Shown: piece after piece, positions 54,084-63,667 of the stretch | Layout of the letters: each line of letters opens with the position of its first letter | Numbering within the stretch: position 1 is the stretch's first letter | Source: Alphaproteobacteria bacterium | GTDB lineage: Bacteria; Pseudomonadota; Alphaproteobacteria; Rhizobiales; CAJQND01 | DNA: 64,000 bases | NCBI GenBank assembly: GCA_024227565.1 | Contig: JAAEUE010000303.1 | Span: 69,292 to 133,291 of the forward strand | Direction: 5' to 3' | Notes under the pieces: generated by a model | Seen by the model: the letters and a program-made list of their open reading frames with translations, nothing else | What the model was told of the DNA's origin: nothing | Database searches by the model: none | Program-made: the position numbers and the translations under genes

Positions 54084-55256
54084 CTAATTGTTTGTGACCC
54101 GGCTCGCTTGGTTCCCATTGAGTTGAGATGTGCCTTGCCTCAACGTAGACGACGAGTTGTTGGCTGGAGTTGCAGGCATGCGGTCCTGCTCATCTTTTCG
54201 CTTCATTGCGAATTCACGTGACTCGCGCGCCAGCGTGTAACCAGGGTCCAACAAGATCGCCCGATCGAAATCAAGAATTGCCCGGTCAAATTTGACCAGT
54301 TTGTAATAGGCAATGCCCCGATTGATGAAGGCAACCGGGTAGTTTGGCCGCAAACGAATGGCCTGCGTGTAGTCGTTTATCGCCTGGTAGTAATCACCTT
54401 TCCGGGCGTAAGCATTGGCCCGACCCAAATAGGCCGCGGCAACCGTTGGGCCAAGTCGAATTGCAGTGCTGAAACTTGAAGCAGCGCTTTCATAGAGTCC
54501 TTTGTTGAACGCCATCTCTCCCTGGCGTAGGGCCGCACTCACGGTTTGCGTTCCGCCGGGAGGTGCAGCCTCCTGGGGGATCTGCCGTTTGACCTTTTGT
54601 TTGCGTTGCTGCTCAATCTCTTTCTTGGCGACCCGGGCCTTCTGCGCTGCCACTGCAAGCTTGCGGTTGGTCATTGCGTGAGCAAAGTTCGGGCGCAAGC
54701 GAATCGCCTCGTCATAATCTGTCAGCGCTTGTTCAAGTTGCCCCTTTTTAAAGTAAGCATCTGCGCGCCCATTGAAGCTGTCGGCAACTTTGGGATCAAG
54801 CCGGATAGCCTCGTCATAATCCTTGATGGCATCGTCGAACTGGCCGTTGATGAAGTGGGCTTTGCCCAGATTGATATGAGCAATCGGATCCGTGGGCCTC
54901 AGCGCCACCACGGAGACAAAATCACTGATCGCTTGATCAATTTTGCCGGCTCGAGCCAGGGCCGCACCCCGATTCAGGAATGCTGTGTGAAATTTTGGGC
55001 TAAGCTCAATGGCCTTGTTGAGGTCTTCAATGGCCTGCTCGTAACGGCCAAGCTGAAGCAAGGAAAAACCGCGATTGTTATGAGCAGCGGCAAGCAGTCT
55101 GGTTTCAAGACTCCCCGACCCAATCAGGCGCGTGCATCCTTGGATGCCGCGCTCGGTCGGGCTGCCATCACAATCGACCAGTGTGTTTGCCTGAACTGGA
55201 GCCATCATTGAGCCCAGCAGCAAGCACCCAGTTGCCAACAGGAGCGTTGTCCTCAT
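54084..55256 (-). CDS. Secreted tetratricopeptide repeat protein
   Basis: A 390-residue TPR protein with a signal peptide (about 1-24, ending VQA). Successive 34-residue repeats occur, for example AHNNRGFSLLQLGRYEQAIEDLNKAIELSP and AYFKKGQLEQALTDYDEAIRLRP, forming two blocks (about 55-200 and 245-350) parted by a lysine-rich linker near residues 200-235. TPRs form protein-binding scaffolds; it is probably periplasmic. I start at ATG 55256, which gives a clean signal peptide. It is the last of a minus-strand group with the TPR-glycosyltransferase-like genes, 193 bases after the nearest. Confidence 0.85.
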   Translation of the reverse strand: MRTTLLLATGCLLLGSMMAPVQANTLVDCDGSPTERGIQGCTRLIGSGSLETRLLAAAHNNRGFSLLQLGRYEQAIEDLNKAIELSPKFHTAFLNRGAALARAGKIDQAISDFVSVVALRPTDPIAHINLGKAHFINGQFDDAIKDYDEAIRLDPKVADSFNGRADAYFKKGQLEQALTDYDEAIRLRPNFAHAMTNRKLAVAAQKARVAKKEIEQQRKQKVKRQIPQEAAPPGGTQTVSAALRQGEMAFNKGLYESAASSFSTAIRLGPTVAAAYLGRANAYARKGDYYQAINDYTQAIRLRPNYPVAFINRGIAYYKLVKFDRAILDFDRAILLDPGYTLARESREFAMKRKDEQDRMPATPANNSSSTLRQGTSQLNGNQASRVTNN

Positions 55257-55449
55257 CGTTGCCTCGAACTCAATCCGTACCACCACAGCTCACAGATTCC
55301 ATCTTGGTCATGTCGCTGTCACGTCGCCCCACCAATAGTCCTAGCAAAATACTCATCAAGTATTCAAGCTAACAGTAATCGCGTGCGACTACAGCGGGGA
55401 ACAACTTTGGCTGCCGTCACGGCAAGCAAACAGCTTAACTGTACAACTT

Positions 55450-57288
55450 CTAGGCCGTACACCGCAGAGAGACAGCATCTTCCTTGACTTCAAGCTCCGC
55501 GCAAACCTGCTTGATAACGCCCCCCCAGTCACCTTGAGCTGCTTGGCGAAACAGGCGCAACGACGGATACCACTCGCTGGCGTCGCCCCGAAGGCCCCAA
55601 CGCCAATCTGGAAGCTGATGAAGCAGAACCCAGCCTGGAACACCCAGAGCGCCCGCAAGCTGGGCTGTGCTATTGTCTACTGTTATGATGAGGTCAAGGG
55701 CAGCCATTTGAGCGGCCAAACCATCCAAATCATCTCTGCTGTCCACCTCATCGTCCCGGAATAAGTGACCAGCGGCAGGTTCGTAGTGCTCCATGGTCTG
55801 AGTTGGATCACGGTATTGCAAGTCAATAAACTGGCACTGCGCATGGGCAAACAATGGCTCAAGATCAGCCGGCAGCATTGAGCGGGCCCGGCCTTGTGCG
55901 GCACTGGTCGTGTACCAGGACAGACCGATGAGCAATTGACCGGGAAACCGCTCCTGATATCTCTTGCGCAGATTTGCGGCCCGCGCCCGATCGTGCTGCA
56001 GCAGGCCGGTATCCAACTCGACCGGATGCAGATCGGGCGATAAATGCCGAATTACACCACGGTCCGTCGACTGCAGATCGCCAAGTGACGGTAATGTCTT
56101 ATCACTGACCTGCGACCTCAACGGAACCAGCTCAGCCGAAGCCAATGAACGCTGCAACAAGGGAATGAGGCGCTCATCGCACTCAACAATGAGACGATCA
56201 GTCCGGTTTTCAAGCTCGGGCAAAAGCCTGGCCATCATCAGGAAATCGCCCACCCCCTCAAGCGCCCATATGTGAAGGCTTTCCTCGTCCAACCGTTCAC
56301 CCTTCCAAGGATCAACAGACCCAAGACGAAACTTGGTCAGCGCCTGGTTGACCTTGTCGAATAATCGCCAGCCTTCGGGCCAGTCACCGGTCAAAAGCTT
56401 TTGAAAAGCCAATGCGCTGTAAAAATCTGCATTCTTGGGCGCAAGTTCGATGCCTTTTTTGAAAGCCGTTTCCGCCTCGTCAAATGCCAGCTGAGCTTGC
56501 GAAACAAGGCCGCTCGCCATATGAGCGGCATGGTCCTTCGGCGCGATTTTCGCTGCCTCGTCAGCCCAATGTCTGGCCCGTTTCAGGTCGTCTTGCCGGA
56601 AATGACACAGTGCTGTCCAAAGGGCTGCCAACGGGTGGCCAGGGCAATCAGCCTCCAACGACCGAAGCTTATGAATGACCGCGTCATAGTCGCGTTGAGC
56701 AAACAATCTATAGGCGGTAGCCAGTTGCTCCTCCTGAGTGCGGAGCGTGGCATCGATGCTGGGCGCTTTGGCAACTGACGCATCGTCCTGCTCGTCGGCA
56801 GACTTGCGCAGGACGCCGCGATAGGGTGCGGCAACAGTCTTGTGCTCAGGCTCAATGGGATCAGACTCGATAGGATCAGCCTCAGCCGGTTTAGCCAGGG
56901 CTTGTTTGCGATGCACTTGCATAAGCTCAAGCGCTTCGATCGCAGCTTCGTGCCGGCAATCGAGAGCAAGGGCTGCATAAACCTCAGCTTCCGCATCATC
57001 AATGCGGTCGGAGCCAAACAAGTGCTTGGCAAGGTTTACCCGGAAAATCGGACTGGTCCCGTCCAAAGCAATTGCCTTACGGGCCAAATCTTCAGCTTCA
57101 GCCAACGCCCCCTGGCATGCCCGCACAATTCCCAGATCGTTGAACACTTCAGCTTGGGTCGGATCTTTTGCAACAATGTGGCGATAGAGCACCTCAGCCT
57201 GCGGCCACATCCCGCGCTTTAAAAGATCTTTGGCTGTGGGGAGCAAATCCAAGGCTGTCTGCGCTTTATCCGACATGAACACGCCCAT
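55450..57288 (-). CDS. TPR protein with glycosyltransferase-like C-terminal domain (paralogue 2)
   Basis: A 612-residue protein. The N-terminal part (to about 330) has TPR repeats such as LLKRGMWPQAEVLYRHIVAKDP and GIELAPKNADFYSALAF. The C-terminal part (about 345-600) resembles GT-B/GT9-type glycosyltransferases, with LIGLSWYT, FIDLQYRDP and VDNSTAQLAGALGVPGWVLL, the usual C-terminal nucleotide-sugar side. It shares its ending with paralogue 1, for example DLDGLAAQ and WYPSLRLFRQ. I start at ATG 57288, overlapping paralogue 1 by 23 bases; ATG 57276 is possible. Cytoplasmic. Acceptor unknown; protein O-glycosylation is a reasonable guess. Confidence 0.78.
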   Translation of the reverse strand: MGVFMSDKAQTALDLLPTAKDLLKRGMWPQAEVLYRHIVAKDPTQAEVFNDLGIVRACQGALAEAEDLARKAIALDGTSPIFRVNLAKHLFGSDRIDDAEAEVYAALALDCRHEAAIEALELMQVHRKQALAKPAEADPIESDPIEPEHKTVAAPYRGVLRKSADEQDDASVAKAPSIDATLRTQEEQLATAYRLFAQRDYDAVIHKLRSLEADCPGHPLAALWTALCHFRQDDLKRARHWADEAAKIAPKDHAAHMASGLVSQAQLAFDEAETAFKKGIELAPKNADFYSALAFQKLLTGDWPEGWRLFDKVNQALTKFRLGSVDPWKGERLDEESLHIWALEGVGDFLMMARLLPELENRTDRLIVECDERLIPLLQRSLASAELVPLRSQVSDKTLPSLGDLQSTDRGVIRHLSPDLHPVELDTGLLQHDRARAANLRKRYQERFPGQLLIGLSWYTTSAAQGRARSMLPADLEPLFAHAQCQFIDLQYRDPTQTMEHYEPAAGHLFRDDEVDSRDDLDGLAAQMAALDLIITVDNSTAQLAGALGVPGWVLLHQLPDWRWGLRGDASEWYPSLRLFRQAAQGDWGGVIKQVCAELEVKEDAVSLRCTA

Positions 57289-58666
57289 CTTGCTCTGCCT
57301 CAGGTGAACAGGATTTGTTGTTGGCAGGTGTTTCGGCGAGTTGCGCTTCCAGTTCCGCCTCAACCTCTTCCAACACCGGCGTCCACTCATCCTTCGCAAT
57401 CTGTCTGAAGAGCCGCATCGTCGGATACCAAGCCGAGCGATCACCCTTAAGGCCCCAAAGCCAATGAGGGTATTTCATCAAAAGCGTCCAGACCGGCTGG
57501 CCGAGGGCGGCAGCCAGATGCACCGTGGTGTTGTCTATTGAGATTACATGGTCCAGTGCCGCAATCTGTGCAGCCAAACCGTCCAGATCGTCCTTGGCAT
57601 CTATGGTTTCATCCACAGCAATGGAAACGCCCATGTTGCGGGCATATTCGGCAAGCACCGGAGCTGACGTGCTGTATTGCAACGAGATGAACTGGCAATC
57701 TTCACGTGCCAGAAGCGCTTTCCATTGGTCGACAGGTATCGTTCGAGCCGATTGCTTAAAACTGCTCGAAGTGCCCCAGGAAAAACCAATGAGCTTGCGC
57801 TCGCCGTAAAGGTCCCGGTATTTCCTGCGCAAGCCCGCAACCTGTTCACCATCAGCTCTTAAATAGTCGCGCGGCTCAGTTTCCGGTTTTGCATCGGGAG
57901 CCAATTGGGCAATCAAATTGGTTAGGAACGTCACATAATCTGCTTTGCGAACCGCCGCTTCGATAGCTTCAGTGTCATCGTGTGCAAGCACATTGAGTGC
58001 TGGAAATGATCGGACCATAAGCTCTGCGATGCGGGGGTCACAGGTGAGAGTAATGTCGTCGCACTCGCCGCAAAGTTGGGTATAGAGACGGGCAACCTGG
58101 AATTCTTCTCCAAGACCCTGCTCATTCAGGACAACCAGCGCCTTGCCGCGCAAAGATTCCCCCTTCCACCCTCTGAGTTCCTCGTCCAAAAACGCATAGC
58201 GTTTGGGCCTCTTGCGCGCCCGATAGAAGGGCCAGGCCTCGTCGAACCGGCCTGTTCTTAACAGGAGAATACCCAGAGAAGCGCTGGCGTGGGGATCCTG
58301 TGGATCAAGCTCCAGGACTTTGCGATATTCAGCCTCTGCTTCATCAAACCGTCCCAAATCCAGCAACGTGGTGGCAAGATTTGAACGGTAAGACGAATTG
58401 GCCGGCTCGAGCTCAATAGCGCGGCGTGACAGCTGTTCTGCCTCGGCCATCTCGTTCTGACAGCCACGTACAACGCTCAAATTGTTGAGGGCGCGCGCAT
58501 ATTTGGGGTCTTCGGCAATAACGTACCGGAAAATCGCCTCGGCCTGAGGCCACAGCCTGCTCTGATGGAGTTGCCAGGCTACGTGCGCAAGCTGGCGCAA
58601 ACCAGCACCAGTAGACGTCCGGGAGGTCACGCTGATCTGAGAGGGTTTCTTGGTTGGCGTGTCCAT
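57266..58666 (-). CDS. TPR protein with glycosyltransferase-like C-terminal domain (paralogue 1)
   Basis: A 466-residue protein with fewer TPRs (about 20-140, WQLHQSRLWPQAEAIFRYVIAEDP, LDLGRFDEAEAEYRKVLELDP) and a C-terminal GT9-like domain (about 150-440) with VVLNEQGLGEEF, LIGFSWGTSSSF, FISLQYST and IDNTTVHLAAALGQPVWTLL. The ending WYPTMRLFRQ matches paralogue 2. I use ATG 58666; an upstream in-frame region to 58828 overlaps the RodZ-like gene and lacks repeats. The two genes are tandem duplicates with different repeat numbers. Confidence 0.78.
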   Translation of the reverse strand: MDTPTKKPSQISVTSRTSTGAGLRQLAHVAWQLHQSRLWPQAEAIFRYVIAEDPKYARALNNLSVVRGCQNEMAEAEQLSRRAIELEPANSSYRSNLATTLLDLGRFDEAEAEYRKVLELDPQDPHASASLGILLLRTGRFDEAWPFYRARKRPKRYAFLDEELRGWKGESLRGKALVVLNEQGLGEEFQVARLYTQLCGECDDITLTCDPRIAELMVRSFPALNVLAHDDTEAIEAAVRKADYVTFLTNLIAQLAPDAKPETEPRDYLRADGEQVAGLRRKYRDLYGERKLIGFSWGTSSSFKQSARTIPVDQWKALLAREDCQFISLQYSTSAPVLAEYARNMGVSIAVDETIDAKDDLDGLAAQIAALDHVISIDNTTVHLAAALGQPVWTLLMKYPHWLWGLKGDRSAWYPTMRLFRQIAKDEWTPVLEEVEAELEAQLAETPANNKSCSPEAEQDGRVHVG

Positions 58667-58730
58667 AAGCTTTCGGGAAACCGCACTTTGAGGCACGATT
58701 GAAGAACCGTTCAAAGGGCGCGGTTTGGAC

Positions 58731-59852
58731 TCAACTGGCCCGTCCGATCTTTTCCGGATCAAGGGGATGGCCAACCAGGATCTCGCCGAGCGTACCGATG
58801 GAACCGTGTTTTTGGCCGTCAAGCTCATAGGTCAGCGCCCCGCCGTCACGGGCAATTAGTACCAGGCCCTTGCGGTTTGGTACTTTGAAAGCATCACCTG
58901 AAAGCAGTGTCTGGTTGAGAACAACGTTTCCATTCTTATCTTCAATACGCACCCAAACTCTTGATTTTGCGGCAATTTTTAAGCGGGAATTCTTGTTCTT
59001 TGAGCCATAGAGCCGACCGCCGGTTGTGTCCACCTTGGCAATTTTGCGGTCAACCCTTTCGATCTTCTCCGCTTTCTCCGTCTTAACCGTCTTAACCGTT
59101 TTCACGGTCTTCTGGATTTTCTCCACCTTGGCCGCAGGAGCTTCGGTCACCGGTTGCGTCGCCGTTTGAGCGATCAGCGCAGTCAAGTCGCCAAGTGGCT
59201 GTTCATTCGTTGCAACTTTTACAGGCTTGGAACTCAGTTCGATTTTCTTTTCGGCCTTGGCAGAATGTGCCTCTTTGGATTTCGGGATTGAACCGGTGAT
59301 CAGATCATCAATCGGCACTTCCCCAGCATAAAGATCGCTCTTTGGCGCCTCAGACGCCCCTGGAAACACTGCATAGGAGAAGCCACCAAAGGCCACCACA
59401 CAGGCAAAGACGGCGCCAATCATCTGGCCGGTTGCAATTTTTGGAAGCGGGAAACGCGAGAGCATGCCGGTTCCGCCAAAGACGGAACTCTGCGCTTCTG
59501 GCAATTGAGGTGCGGCACTGGGCGGCAACAGTTTGCCGAAATGGGCGCACAAAGGGCCCGGCTCAAGTTTGAGATAGTCTGCATAGGCCCACACAATATC
59601 CAAGGCCTGGCCCCGCTCCGGCAATTTGTTGAGCCAACCGCATTCCAGCGCAGTGAGGTAGTCCGGTTCGATCCGAGTCGCGAGTGCAACCTCTGTGAGG
59701 CTGATACCGCGCTCGTGGCGCTCGTTGTGCAGCCACCAGCCAGCGATGACCGCCGGCCCGGCATTTTCAGATGGTTTTGCAAGGCGCGGGCCTTCCATAG
59801 AAATATCAATCTTGGGCATTTGGTTGCCGGATTCCACCACAACTGAACTCAT
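58731..59852 (-). CDS. RodZ-like helix-turn-helix membrane protein
   Basis: A 373-residue protein with a RodZ layout: an N-terminal HTH_25 domain (about 35-85, RGISLTEVALATRIEPDYLTALE), one membrane helix (about 143-163, MIGAVFACVVAFGGFSYAVF), a long lysine/threonine-rich linker with a KTVKTVKT repeat, and a C-terminal DUF4115 beta domain (RVWVRIEDKNGNVVL, GDAFKVPNRKGLVLIARDGG). RodZ links MreB to the wall-building machinery. The product is thus likely an inner-membrane cell-shape factor; it could also be a DNA-binding variant. I start at ATG 59852. The TPR-glycosyltransferase genes follow 64 bases later. Confidence 0.82.
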   Translation of the reverse strand: MSSVVVESGNQMPKIDISMEGPRLAKPSENAGPAVIAGWWLHNERHERGISLTEVALATRIEPDYLTALECGWLNKLPERGQALDIVWAYADYLKLEPGPLCAHFGKLLPPSAAPQLPEAQSSVFGGTGMLSRFPLPKIATGQMIGAVFACVVAFGGFSYAVFPGASEAPKSDLYAGEVPIDDLITGSIPKSKEAHSAKAEKKIELSSKPVKVATNEQPLGDLTALIAQTATQPVTEAPAAKVEKIQKTVKTVKTVKTEKAEKIERVDRKIAKVDTTGGRLYGSKNKNSRLKIAAKSRVWVRIEDKNGNVVLNQTLLSGDAFKVPNRKGLVLIARDGGALTYELDGQKHGSIGTLGEILVGHPLDPEKIGRAS

Positions 59853-60053: not shown

Positions 60054-62324
60054 TCAGCCGTGCAACTGGACGCCGCTCTTGCTGGCAAAGCGCAGGATTT
60101 CATCACGCAGCGAATGATCCGGATGGTCAAGTAACGGCAAGATTACCTCTCGCGCAGCCGCTAAATCCACCGAGCGTAGCATGGTCTTGACTGGGCCGAT
60201 GGCGGCCGGAACCATGGAAACCGACCGCACACCCAGGGCCATCAGAGCCAAAGCTTCCAGCGGCATGCCGGCAATCTCACCGCACACAGTCAACGGCACC
60301 TTGTGCTTTTCTGATTGCTCCACAATTTGCTTCATAAGACTCAGGAAGGCCGGCGATAACGCATCGTACTGTGCTGCCAACTGAGGATTCCCTCGGTCGT
60401 AGGCGAACAAGAACTGCAAAAGATCGTTGGTTCCCACCGAGACAAAGTCGGTCAGCGGCAATAAGGCCGGCAACTGCCACACAAGCGCGGGAACTTCGAT
60501 CATCGCACCAACACGAAGCTCCGTTGGCGCCTCATGCCCATGGCGGGTCAGGAAGGCAAACTCCTCATCCACCAACGCGCGGGCTTTGCGGAACTCATCG
60601 GCCTCGGCCACCATGGGGAACATAACCGAAAGCTTGCGCCCACCGGCTGCCTTCAGGAACGCCCTCAGCTGCAGCTTCAGCAGCGCGGGCCGATCAAGCG
60701 ACATTCGGATGGCGCGCCAGCCCAGTGCCGGGTTCTCCTCTTGGCCATGATGCAGATAAGGCAAGGTTTTATCAGCGCCGATATCCAGCGTGCGAAACAC
60801 CACAGGCTTGTCGCCTGCTGAATCCAAAACAGCTCGGTAATAGGATACCTGCTCGTCCATACGCGGAAACGAAGAGGCAATCATGAACTGCAGCTCCGTA
60901 CGGAACAAGCCGATGCCCTCAGCCCCTGCCCGCTCCAGATGAGGCAGATCCATCAAAAGGCCTGCATTAATATTCAGATTGATCGGCGTTCCGTCTCGGG
61001 TTTGAGCCGCCTCTCCCCGCAGACGGGTATATTGGGCTTGGCGCTTGGCGTAGAGCGAAACTTTCTCACCGTAAGCCTCCCTGATTGATTGCAGAGGACG
61101 CAGAAAGATTTCGCCGCTGTCACCATCGACAATGATAGAATCGCCCGTATCGGACAAATTCAAGATCCCCTGCACCTGGCCCACAAGCGGAATGCCTAGC
61201 GCCCGGGCCACAATGGTCGCGTGGCTGTTGCCGCCGCCTTCTTGCAACACCACGCCGCGCACCCGGTCTCGGTCATAGTCCAGCAGTTCCGCCGCCCCCA
61301 TGGAGCGGGCGACAACAATCGCATCTTTCGGCAATTCACCGCCCGCGGCCGTTCCGGTCGTGCCGGTCAGAATGCGCAAGAGCCGATTGGCGAGATCATC
61401 AAGATCGTGCAGCCGCTCCTGCAAATAAGGATCGCGTGAACGCATCATCCGCGCCCGCGTGTTGGATTGCTCGCGTTCCACCGCCGCTTCAGCCGTCAAC
61501 CCGGTGTCTACCGCCTCTTGCAACCGCCTCACCCAGCCGCGGTCGTGCGCAAACATGCGGTATGCTTCAAGAACCTCCCGGTGCTCACCACTGCGCGCCA
61601 GATCTGGCGCTGTGATCATGGTGTCCACGCTTTCGCGCAAACGTTCCACCCCTGCCGACAGGCGCTCCTTTTCCGCCCTGACATCTTCTGCAATCAGATT
61701 TGTGATGTGGATACGCGGCCGATGAAGCACCACGTGGCCAAGCGCAACGCCGCCGGAAAACGAGGCCCCGCTAAGCTGATGCGATCGGGTATGACCAAGA
61801 TCAACCTCTTCGGCTTCACCCACTTCATCCAGTTCGCCCGAAGCAACCACTTCCGCCAGCACCATGGCGGTGGTCTGCATGGCCTCCACTTCTTCTTCGG
61901 AATAATGACGCTGAGTCCGGTTCTGAACCGTGAGCACCCCAAGGATCAGACCGCTGCGCAACACCGGAACACCCAGGAAGGAGTGATAAACCTCCTCGCC
62001 TGTCTCCGGCAGATATTTAAACGCCGGATGGGCTTGTGCTTCGGGCAGATTGAGGGGCGAGGCATTTGCCGCAATCACCCCCACTAGGCCCTCGCCTACC
62101 CGCAGCTTGGTTTCGTGCAGCGCATCGGCGTTCAATCCTTCGGTGGCATAAAGTTCAAGGAACCCGCCCGGCCGCATGACATAAATCGAGCAGACCTCGG
62201 CAACCATGTTGGAGGCGATCAGCGTCGTGATCTTGTTCAGCCGCGTTTGAGCTGCTTCGGGCCCCGCCATCACCTCACGGAGGCGCCTGAGCAGTACGCG
62301 CGGGCCGACGTGAGCGGGTTGCAT
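60054..62324 (-). CDS. ptsP: Phosphoenolpyruvate-protein phosphotransferase of the nitrogen PTS (EI-Ntr)
   Basis: A 756-residue EI-Ntr. It takes phosphate from PEP and passes it to NPr and EIIA-Ntr in a regulatory chain tied to nitrogen and potassium status. Order: GAF domain (about 20-160), PEP-utiliser N domain (about 185-310), the swivelling phosphohistidine domain with H368 in GGGNSHATIVARA, and the PEP-binding barrel with IGLFRTELQFM and VCGEIAGMPLEAL. Full length. It lies 92 bases after lysC on the same strand, a common order in Hyphomicrobiales. Confidence 0.96.
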   Translation of the reverse strand: MQPAHVGPRVLLRRLREVMAGPEAAQTRLNKITTLIASNMVAEVCSIYVMRPGGFLELYATEGLNADALHETKLRVGEGLVGVIAANASPLNLPEAQAHPAFKYLPETGEEVYHSFLGVPVLRSGLILGVLTVQNRTQRHYSEEEVEAMQTTAMVLAEVVASGELDEVGEAEEVDLGHTRSHQLSGASFSGGVALGHVVLHRPRIHITNLIAEDVRAEKERLSAGVERLRESVDTMITAPDLARSGEHREVLEAYRMFAHDRGWVRRLQEAVDTGLTAEAAVEREQSNTRARMMRSRDPYLQERLHDLDDLANRLLRILTGTTGTAAGGELPKDAIVVARSMGAAELLDYDRDRVRGVVLQEGGGNSHATIVARALGIPLVGQVQGILNLSDTGDSIIVDGDSGEIFLRPLQSIREAYGEKVSLYAKRQAQYTRLRGEAAQTRDGTPINLNINAGLLMDLPHLERAGAEGIGLFRTELQFMIASSFPRMDEQVSYYRAVLDSAGDKPVVFRTLDIGADKTLPYLHHGQEENPALGWRAIRMSLDRPALLKLQLRAFLKAAGGRKLSVMFPMVAEADEFRKARALVDEEFAFLTRHGHEAPTELRVGAMIEVPALVWQLPALLPLTDFVSVGTNDLLQFLFAYDRGNPQLAAQYDALSPAFLSLMKQIVEQSEKHKVPLTVCGEIAGMPLEALALMALGVRSVSMVPAAIGPVKTMLRSVDLAAAREVILPLLDHPDHSLRDEILRFASKSGVQLHG

Positions 62325-62416: not shown

Positions 62417-63667
62417 TTATGTCTCTGCATCCAATCCATAGGCAGTGTGGAGTGAGCGCAACGCGAGTTCGGTATAGGCAGAATCGATCAATACGGAGAT
62501 CTTGATTTCCGACGTGGTGATCGCCTGAATGTTGATATTCCGATCAGCCAATGTTCGAAACATCTTGGCAGCAACGCCCGCATGAGAACGCATGCCAATT
62601 CCGATCACAGAAACCTTCACCACCTCAGTTGAACCGGTGAGGTCTTCATACTCGATCTCATCTTTGGCCTCTTCGATCACCTTAAGCGCCCGCTCCAGGT
62701 CATTTTCAGAGACTGTGAACGTTAGATCGGTGTATTTACCGTCTCCTGAAACGTTCTGTACGATCATGTCCACATTGATTTCGCTCTCGGACAGCGGCCC
62801 GAATATGCGTGCGGAAACCCCCGGCTTGTCCCGCACCCTGGCGAGCGTCACCTTGGCTTCGTTGCGGGAATAAGCAATTCCGCTAACCACTTCCTGTTCC
62901 ACAATCTCATCCTCATCGCATACGAGTGTGCCTGGAATATTGTTACCTGAAACGTCAACGGTCTCAGGGTCATCAAAACTGGAGCGTACCCGCAAGGGCA
63001 CCCTGTGTATCATCGCCGCTTCAACCGAGCGGGTTTGCAGAACCTTAGCTCCGAGCGATGCCATCTCCAGCATCTCTTCATAGGAAATCCGCTCAAGCTT
63101 GCGGGCCTTGGAGACAATGCGCGGATCGGTGGTGTAGACCCCGTCCACGTCAGTATAAATATGGCAGCGCGCATCAAGGGCCGCCGCAAGGGCCACGGCG
63201 CTGGTGTCTGATCCGCCCCGCCCCAATGTGGCAACCCGGTTGTCGGGTCCCAGACCCTGAAATCCGGCAATCACCGCCACCTGACCATCATCCATGCGGC
63301 CGCCGATCTCCTCGGCCTCAATATCAACGATCCGTGCTGCACCATGCACTGCATCTGTGCGGATCGGGATCTGCCAACCGAGCCAGGAGCGCGCCGATAT
63401 GTCCATGCCCTGAAGCACCAGAGCCAACAGCCCGGAAGTCACCTGCTCGCCGGTCGCCACAACGGCGTCATATTCGCGCGCATCGTGAATGGCCGAAGCC
63501 TCCTTGGCCCAAGCCACAAGCTGGTCGGTTTGCCCGGCCATAGCCGAAACCACCACCGCAACCTTGTTGCCGGCATCCACCTCGCGCTTCACATGGCGGG
63601 CCACATTGCGGATCCGCTCCAGGTCTGCGACGGAGGTTCCGCCAAATTTCATCACCAGTCGGTTCAT
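62417..63667 (-). CDS. lysC: Aspartate kinase
   Basis: A 416-residue aspartate kinase, the first enzyme of the lysine, threonine and methionine branch. It phosphorylates L-aspartate with ATP. The catalytic start KFGGTSVADLERIRNVA, the middle GRGGSDTSAVALAAAL and DVDGVYTTDPRIV are all present. Two ACT domains (about 265-415) at the C-terminus give feedback control by lysine and/or threonine. No riboswitch-like leader was seen in the 148 bases to ubiG. Confidence 0.97.
   Translation of the reverse strand: MNRLVMKFGGTSVADLERIRNVARHVKREVDAGNKVAVVVSAMAGQTDQLVAWAKEASAIHDAREYDAVVATGEQVTSGLLALVLQGMDISARSWLGWQIPIRTDAVHGAARIVDIEAEEIGGRMDDGQVAVIAGFQGLGPDNRVATLGRGGSDTSAVALAAALDARCHIYTDVDGVYTTDPRIVSKARKLERISYEEMLEMASLGAKVLQTRSVEAAMIHRVPLRVRSSFDDPETVDVSGNNIPGTLVCDEDEIVEQEVVSGIAYSRNEAKVTLARVRDKPGVSARIFGPLSESEINVDMIVQNVSGDGKYTDLTFTVSENDLERALKVIEEAKDEIEYEDLTGSTEVVKVSVIGIGMRSHAGVAAKMFRTLADRNINIQAITTSEIKISVLIDSAYTELALRSLHTAYGLDAET

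Follow-up and report, generated by a model that had tools for sequence, protein, structure and literature searches.

The window, a stretch of 64,000 nucleotides from an uncultured Hyphomicrobiales bacterium (genome G000, 86.5% complete), carries three genes on the minus strand at 55450-59852: a RodZ-like gene, followed by two genes, indicated here as A and B, whose products combine TPR repeats with a glycosyltransferase-like domain. The same three genes had been listed, from the sequence alone, in a preliminary description of the region: its coordinates are exact, and the nature of the genes is supported by Pfam and by the homology between A and B. The features of the locus are reported below, with the source of each assignment in brackets.

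62417-63667, minus strand: lysC, upstream neighbour, part of the ancestral cluster (Pfam and synteny)
60054-62324, minus strand: ptsP, upstream neighbour, part of the ancestral cluster (Pfam and synteny)
58731-59852, minus strand: RodZ-like gene, 373 aa (Pfam over cut-off; hydrophobic 19-mer)
57266-58666, minus strand: gene A, four TPR units and a GT9-like GT-B domain, 466 aa (Pfam, AlphaFold2)
58220-58612, minus strand: TPR helices of A, aa 19-149 (model)
57329-58204, minus strand: glycosyltransferase domain of A, aa 155-446 (Glyco_transf_9, 30.6 bits on the domain alone; PDB profile search)
58106-58123, minus strand: loop EQGLGE of A, aa 182-187 (Glu where 53 of 53 compared rows have Asp)
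57518-57535, minus strand: DNTTVH of A, aa 378-383 (aligned with HepI D261 to H266)
57266-57288, minus strand: overlap of the A end and the B start, 23 nt (coordinates; overlap also in the congener G001)
55450-57288, minus strand: gene B, about nine TPR units in two blocks and a glycosyltransferase domain, 612 aa (Pfam, homology to A, model)
55459-56364, minus strand: glycosyltransferase-like domain of B (36% identity to the domain of A)
56245-56262, minus strand: loop LEGVGD of B (Asp retained, Glu-Gln gone)
54084-55286, minus strand: TPR protein downstream of B, N-terminus signal-like by eye (Pfam; adjoins B in G001 too)

The RodZ-like gene and A are separated by 64 nt. B is read from the ATG at 57288; an alternative ATG, at 57276, would shorten the product to 608 aa. 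A and B probably form an operon, with a single transcript and translational coupling; a scan for promoters and terminators gave no signal above shuffled sequences. The order lysC-ptsP-rodZ-A-B-TPR is identical in the congener, the Hyphomicrobiales MAG IP29b_bin.146 (G001). Protein identity between the two genomes is 96.9% for lysC, 93.9% for ptsP, 79.5% for the RodZ-like protein, 75.1% for A and 68.6% for B; amino-acid change is far below silent change. As silent sites are saturated, A, B and their neighbours are under selection to be retained, and the conservation of both gene order and proteins indicates that the A-B arrangement is not due to chance.

When analyzed by Pfam, A matches several TPR models and passes the curated cut-off for glycosyltransferase family 9 (PF01075; Glyco_transf_9, 29.0 bits against a cut-off of 22). 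Its AlphaFold2 model (pLDDT 86.9, pTM 0.83) consists of eight TPR helices, forming four units, and an alpha/beta domain. B matches TPR models only, with no glycosyltransferase match at E<=1; its C-terminal part, however, is 32% identical to that of A (E 1.6e-62), and its model (pLDDT 81.5, pTM 0.65) features the same domain, preceded by about nine TPR units, whose two blocks are separated by a low-confidence stretch (residues 129-174). The GT9/GT-B-like C-terminal domain of the preliminary description is thus found in A by Pfam and in B by homology to A, while B alone fails the Pfam GT9 model. The two other features noted there, many repeats in one protein and few in the other, and long identical motifs, are both borne out: the models give about nine TPR units for B and four for A, and DDLDGLAAQ, along with WYP and LFRQ in the tail, is identical across A and B in both species.

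The family of the domain was evaluated by a PDB search with a profile of 39 glycosyltransferase domains (A, B, the G001 copy of A, and 36 of 52 listed rows). Five distinct sequences were matched, all of them GT9, with E from 0.0014 to 0.33. WaaF is the best match (0.0014), followed by WaaC/HepI in three versions (0.033-0.035) and by a GT9 protein (0.33). The GT9 signal of this sequence search is one-sided but weak. Scanned singly, 29 of the 39 domains match Pfam GT9 at E<=0.01. Glyco_transf_41, the Pfam profile of the GT41 catalytic domain, has no match at E<=1 in A or B, and none in the tallies for the 39 domains. Fold searches place OGT and SPINDLY high for both A and B: the top matches of A are 8dtf (E 2.2e-11) and OGT 6e37 (Z 22.1, rmsd 17.0 over 270 residues), the latter TPR-dominated; when a superposition with OGT or SPINDLY spans both domains, the fit is poor (rmsd about 14 to 19) and led by the TPRs. 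GT9 chains are absent among the fold matches listed; the list being TPR-dominated, this absence carries no weight. Assignment of A and B to GT41 was rejected, on account of the missing family match and of the TPR-led nature of the fold matches. The likeness to O-GlcNAc transferases, as originally suggested, holds for the architecture, but not for the domain: among proteins of known structure, its sequence relatives are GT9 members.

In a tree of 55 glycosyltransferase domains, A and B form one group (support 99/96) with long stems. The tree omits P0001 (a third TPR-glycosyltransferase of the same genome, described below), two L050 copies and one partial L071 row. From tree and homology, A and B look like the products of an old tandem duplication. 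Proteins linked to flaF/flbT in Caulobacteraceae, and the set linked to nonulosonate genes, form other groups; the deep split has a support of 91/90 only, in a tree from which FlmG's own sequence is absent. TPR-GT9-like relatives of A are present, at E<=1e-30, in 48 of 397 genomes sampled from the order; in this search, matches listed outside the genus have an identity of 34% or less. The pair itself is found in just two of the genomes compared, that of the window and that of the one congener among them. It is conserved but limited to the genus, and represents a known kind of enzyme in an unusual pairing. Other adjacent copies were observed: two TPR-glycosyltransferase genes lie in tandem in G200 (family f4), and a Moraxellaceae MAG features a second pair (L051:8632-12438), each member 33-35% identical to A, with a 237-aa gene between them.

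The loop EQGxGD is near-invariant in these domains: Glu and Gln are found in 52 of 53 compared rows each, Asp in all 53. The rows are domains of at least 200 aa from 45 loci, plus P0001, which is counted twice, being also the L048 row; L052 and L053 are near copies. In the profile alignment the loop Asp falls, within a low-scoring N-terminal stretch, on WaaF residue 13. According to a review, D13 occurs in every heptosyltransferase and is proposed to act as the catalytic base, and the D13A change lowers HepI activity 4688-fold (PMC5713226). At this position A carries Glu187, in both species (codons GAA and GAG), and so lacks a GT9 feature which B has: B retains the Asp, with Leu-Glu replacing Glu-Gln, in both species. 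At the positions of HepI 261 and 266, A keeps both residues (D378 and H383); in B the Asp is kept, while at the equivalent of H266 G000 has Gln and G001 has His. A and B are each changed at a different place of one loop, and may be tuned enzymes, an enzyme and its helper, or proteins losing activity. Differing changes within one pair offer a direct test of which residues matter in this kind of enzyme, and also of whether paired copies act together.

We consider it rather probable that A and B are tandem-duplicated, cytoplasmic protein O-glycosyltransferases of the TPR plus GT9-like kind, put behind the RodZ-like gene by a rearrangement. The glycosyltransferase reading is supported by the GT9 matches, the model of A, the grouping of A and B in the tree and the HepI D261/H266 equivalents in A. 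Enzymatic activity, acceptor docking, O-linkage and cytoplasmic location are what we infer for both proteins. Made from a single transcript and translationally coupled, they would each use the TPR superhelix to dock an acceptor protein before its export, and the GT-B domain would move a sugar from a nucleotide-activated donor onto Ser/Thr. A protein-glycosylating TPR-glycosyltransferase pair, as anticipated in the preliminary description, is in this sense likely. The lack of an acceptor or sugar gene directly beside A-B counts against this explanation. Moreover, with no Pfam GT9 match in B, and with Glu at the position of the catalytic base in A, either protein may be less active or inactive.

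The loop changes also speak for a different, unlikely view, in which one of the two proteins is an enzyme and the other its helper, or neither is catalytic, the glycosyltransferase fold would sense sugars or proteins, and the subunits would cooperate: EQGxGD is broken at a different place in each copy, in the same way in the two species although silent change is saturated, in a pair where the genes overlap and B has no Pfam glycosyltransferase match. Yet Glu in place of Asp is still a carboxylate in A, Asp is retained in B, and G184, G186, W297, Q330, D378, W413 and Y414 are kept in both. A somewhat less probable arrangement would be an obligate two-subunit protein glycosyltransferase: each copy would have lost a different part of the catalytic loop after the duplication, and A and B would now complement or control one another, the nine-TPR subunit holding the acceptor while its partner catalyses. 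In the literature searched, paired TPR-GT9 enzymes were not found, and none of such two-subunit sort is known. A role of the domain in building LPS or a surface glycan, by transfer of heptose or a different sugar as in GT9 enzymes, with the TPRs only as a scaffold, is improbable: the PDB profile matches, all LPS heptosyltransferases or a GT9 protein, would agree with such a role, but several relatives adjoin flagellin, RTX or Thr-rich repeat protein genes (the neighbours of other relatives being uninformative), and a TPR fusion is not a known feature of LPS heptosyltransferases.

The RodZ-like protein matches HTH_25 (49.4 bits against a cut-off of 24.6) and RodZ_C (29.7 bits against 23.9), and contains one hydrophobic 19-mer (aa 145-163), corresponding to one predicted membrane span. 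Homologues are present, at E<=1e-8, in 13 of 61 genomes, the window's included. In ten of the 11 genomes other than G000 and G001 the gene is preceded by ptsP and followed by prfA and prmC, while in G048 the contig ends there; the gene of G008 was placed by the homologue search and the reading of its neighbourhood, as a later synteny search did not list it. A or B adjoins the gene in none of the 11, the downstream neighbour being readable in ten. In both G000 and G001 prfA is located on another contig. By gene order, the RodZ-like gene belongs to an older lysC-ptsP-rodZ-prfA-prmC cluster, with A-B at its break in the genus: a rearrangement would have split rodZ from prfA there, the place of A-B behind rodZ being its result and not due to a shared job.

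MreB, the partner of RodZ, was not found at E<=1e-30 in G000 (86.5% complete), G001 (99%) or G002 (76%). Clear MreB sequences (E 1.8e-113 or better) are present in ten of the 61 genomes; at loose E, frames some 650 and 450 aa long give weak matches, and from their length these would be DnaK and FtsA. Only two carriers of the RodZ-like gene, G038 and G039, have MreB: in 11 of the 13 none was found, and the gene always follows ptsP. The absence of MreB in Hyphomicrobiales is already reported in a published study (PMC10259793). The preliminary description had taken the grouping as a hint at glycosylation of a cell-shape protein, and had proposed cluster conservation as a check. The order is kept in G001, but the RodZ-like gene and A/B are not co-conserved beyond the genus; with no TPR-glycosyltransferase at the ten readable loci elsewhere, and no MreB found in the genus, the hint is unsupported, and the place of A-B looks like a gene-order accident. 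That A and B take part in envelope growth, acting on the RodZ-like membrane protein or together with it, is very improbable, and this reading was rejected: strand, 64-nt gap and order kept in both species would suit it, but none of the 10 other loci that could be read shows the adjacency, MreB was not found in G000, G001 and G002, and prfA is displaced at the same point. Dropping the RodZ link corrects a guilt-by-association guess that is easy for annotators to make.

The third TPR-glycosyltransferase, P0001 (644 aa; L048, G000:C291:9000-28000), is flanked on one side by two ABC exporters and an RTX protein of 1013 aa with 13 stretches of calcium-binding repeats, and on the other by a nonulosonate operon (NeuB, NeuC, cytidylyltransferase, HisF/WbuZ, amidotransferase, WbuX). 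The RTX protein may be a substrate of P0001, glycosylated ahead of its type I secretion, and P0001 is a better candidate than A or B for a FlmG-type enzyme. G001 (L049, G001:C16:70000-89000) retains the TPR-glycosyltransferase along with the nonulosonate genes, but the stretch read there showed no RTX gene. The order-wide search of A relatives also found TPR-glycosyltransferase frames of 1706-1778 aa in seven genomes. Three such loci were read (L043:81-13282, L135:124-13981, L136:46-8283): the frames, of about 1700 aa, contain several TPR-glycosyltransferase units, and in all three a frame for a Thr-rich repeat protein (16-18% Thr) precedes them, an arrangement suggestive of giant multi-domain glycosyltransferases that serve a repeat adhesin.

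Flagellin is a possible acceptor of A and B. The genus has flagellins: flagellin-domain genes number one in G000 and five in G001, and none was found in G002 (76% complete, no A/B), a count of three genomes only, which we do not take as proof that flagellin goes with A/B. As flagellin was not found in four of 12 checked genomes carrying relatives (G177, G200, G303, G069), it is not a general target. Small genomes of family f4 (1.3-1.5 Mb; loci L130, L131, L132), G200 among them, feature TPR-glycosyltransferase genes, and flagellin was not found in them. With type I secretion/RTX genes on one side of P0001 and the nonulosonate operon on the other, surface proteins other than flagellin are plausible acceptors for the TPR-glycosyltransferase kind; for A and B, the acceptor may also be a glycan.

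Among known systems, RodZ has the same parts as the RodZ-like protein (HTH_25, membrane span, RodZ_C), which here belongs to a genus where MreB was not found. OGT and SPINDLY (GT41) resemble A and B in the TPR superhelix joined to a GT-B fold; A and B differ in lacking a GT41 family match, and in the placement of the domains. The GT9 heptosyltransferases (WaaC/HepI, WaaF) have the Pfam model and the D261/H266-like motif in common with A, which differs by its Glu at the D13-like position; they are not known to have TPRs. The only characterised TPR plus GT9-like protein found in the literature searched is FlmG of Caulobacter crescentus (CCNA_01524), another alphaproteobacterial protein. According to its description (PMC7591256), FlmG is cytoplasmic, 596 aa long, with an N-terminal TPR half, which binds flagellins, and a C-terminal GT-B-like domain, and the whole protein is needed to modify flagellins with pseudaminic acid in the cytoplasm. 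The same architecture is found in A and B. FlmG, however, belongs to a flagellar and pseudaminic acid pathway, while no flaF, flbT, flagellin or nonulosonate genes lie beside A-B, whose neighbours are lysC, ptsP, the RodZ-like gene and the TPR gene, and in the tree both proteins fall outside the flaF/flbT-linked Caulobacteraceae clade. Orthology to FlmG was rejected on tree and neighbours, FlmG being kept as a protein that A and B would work like. Relatives in Phenylobacterium adjoin FlbT, FlaF or flagellin genes, as in the FlmG setting; these flagellar neighbours, and the binding of flagellin by FlmG, count in favour of a FlmG-like reading. By this analogy, A and B probably hold an export-bound protein and glycosylate it.
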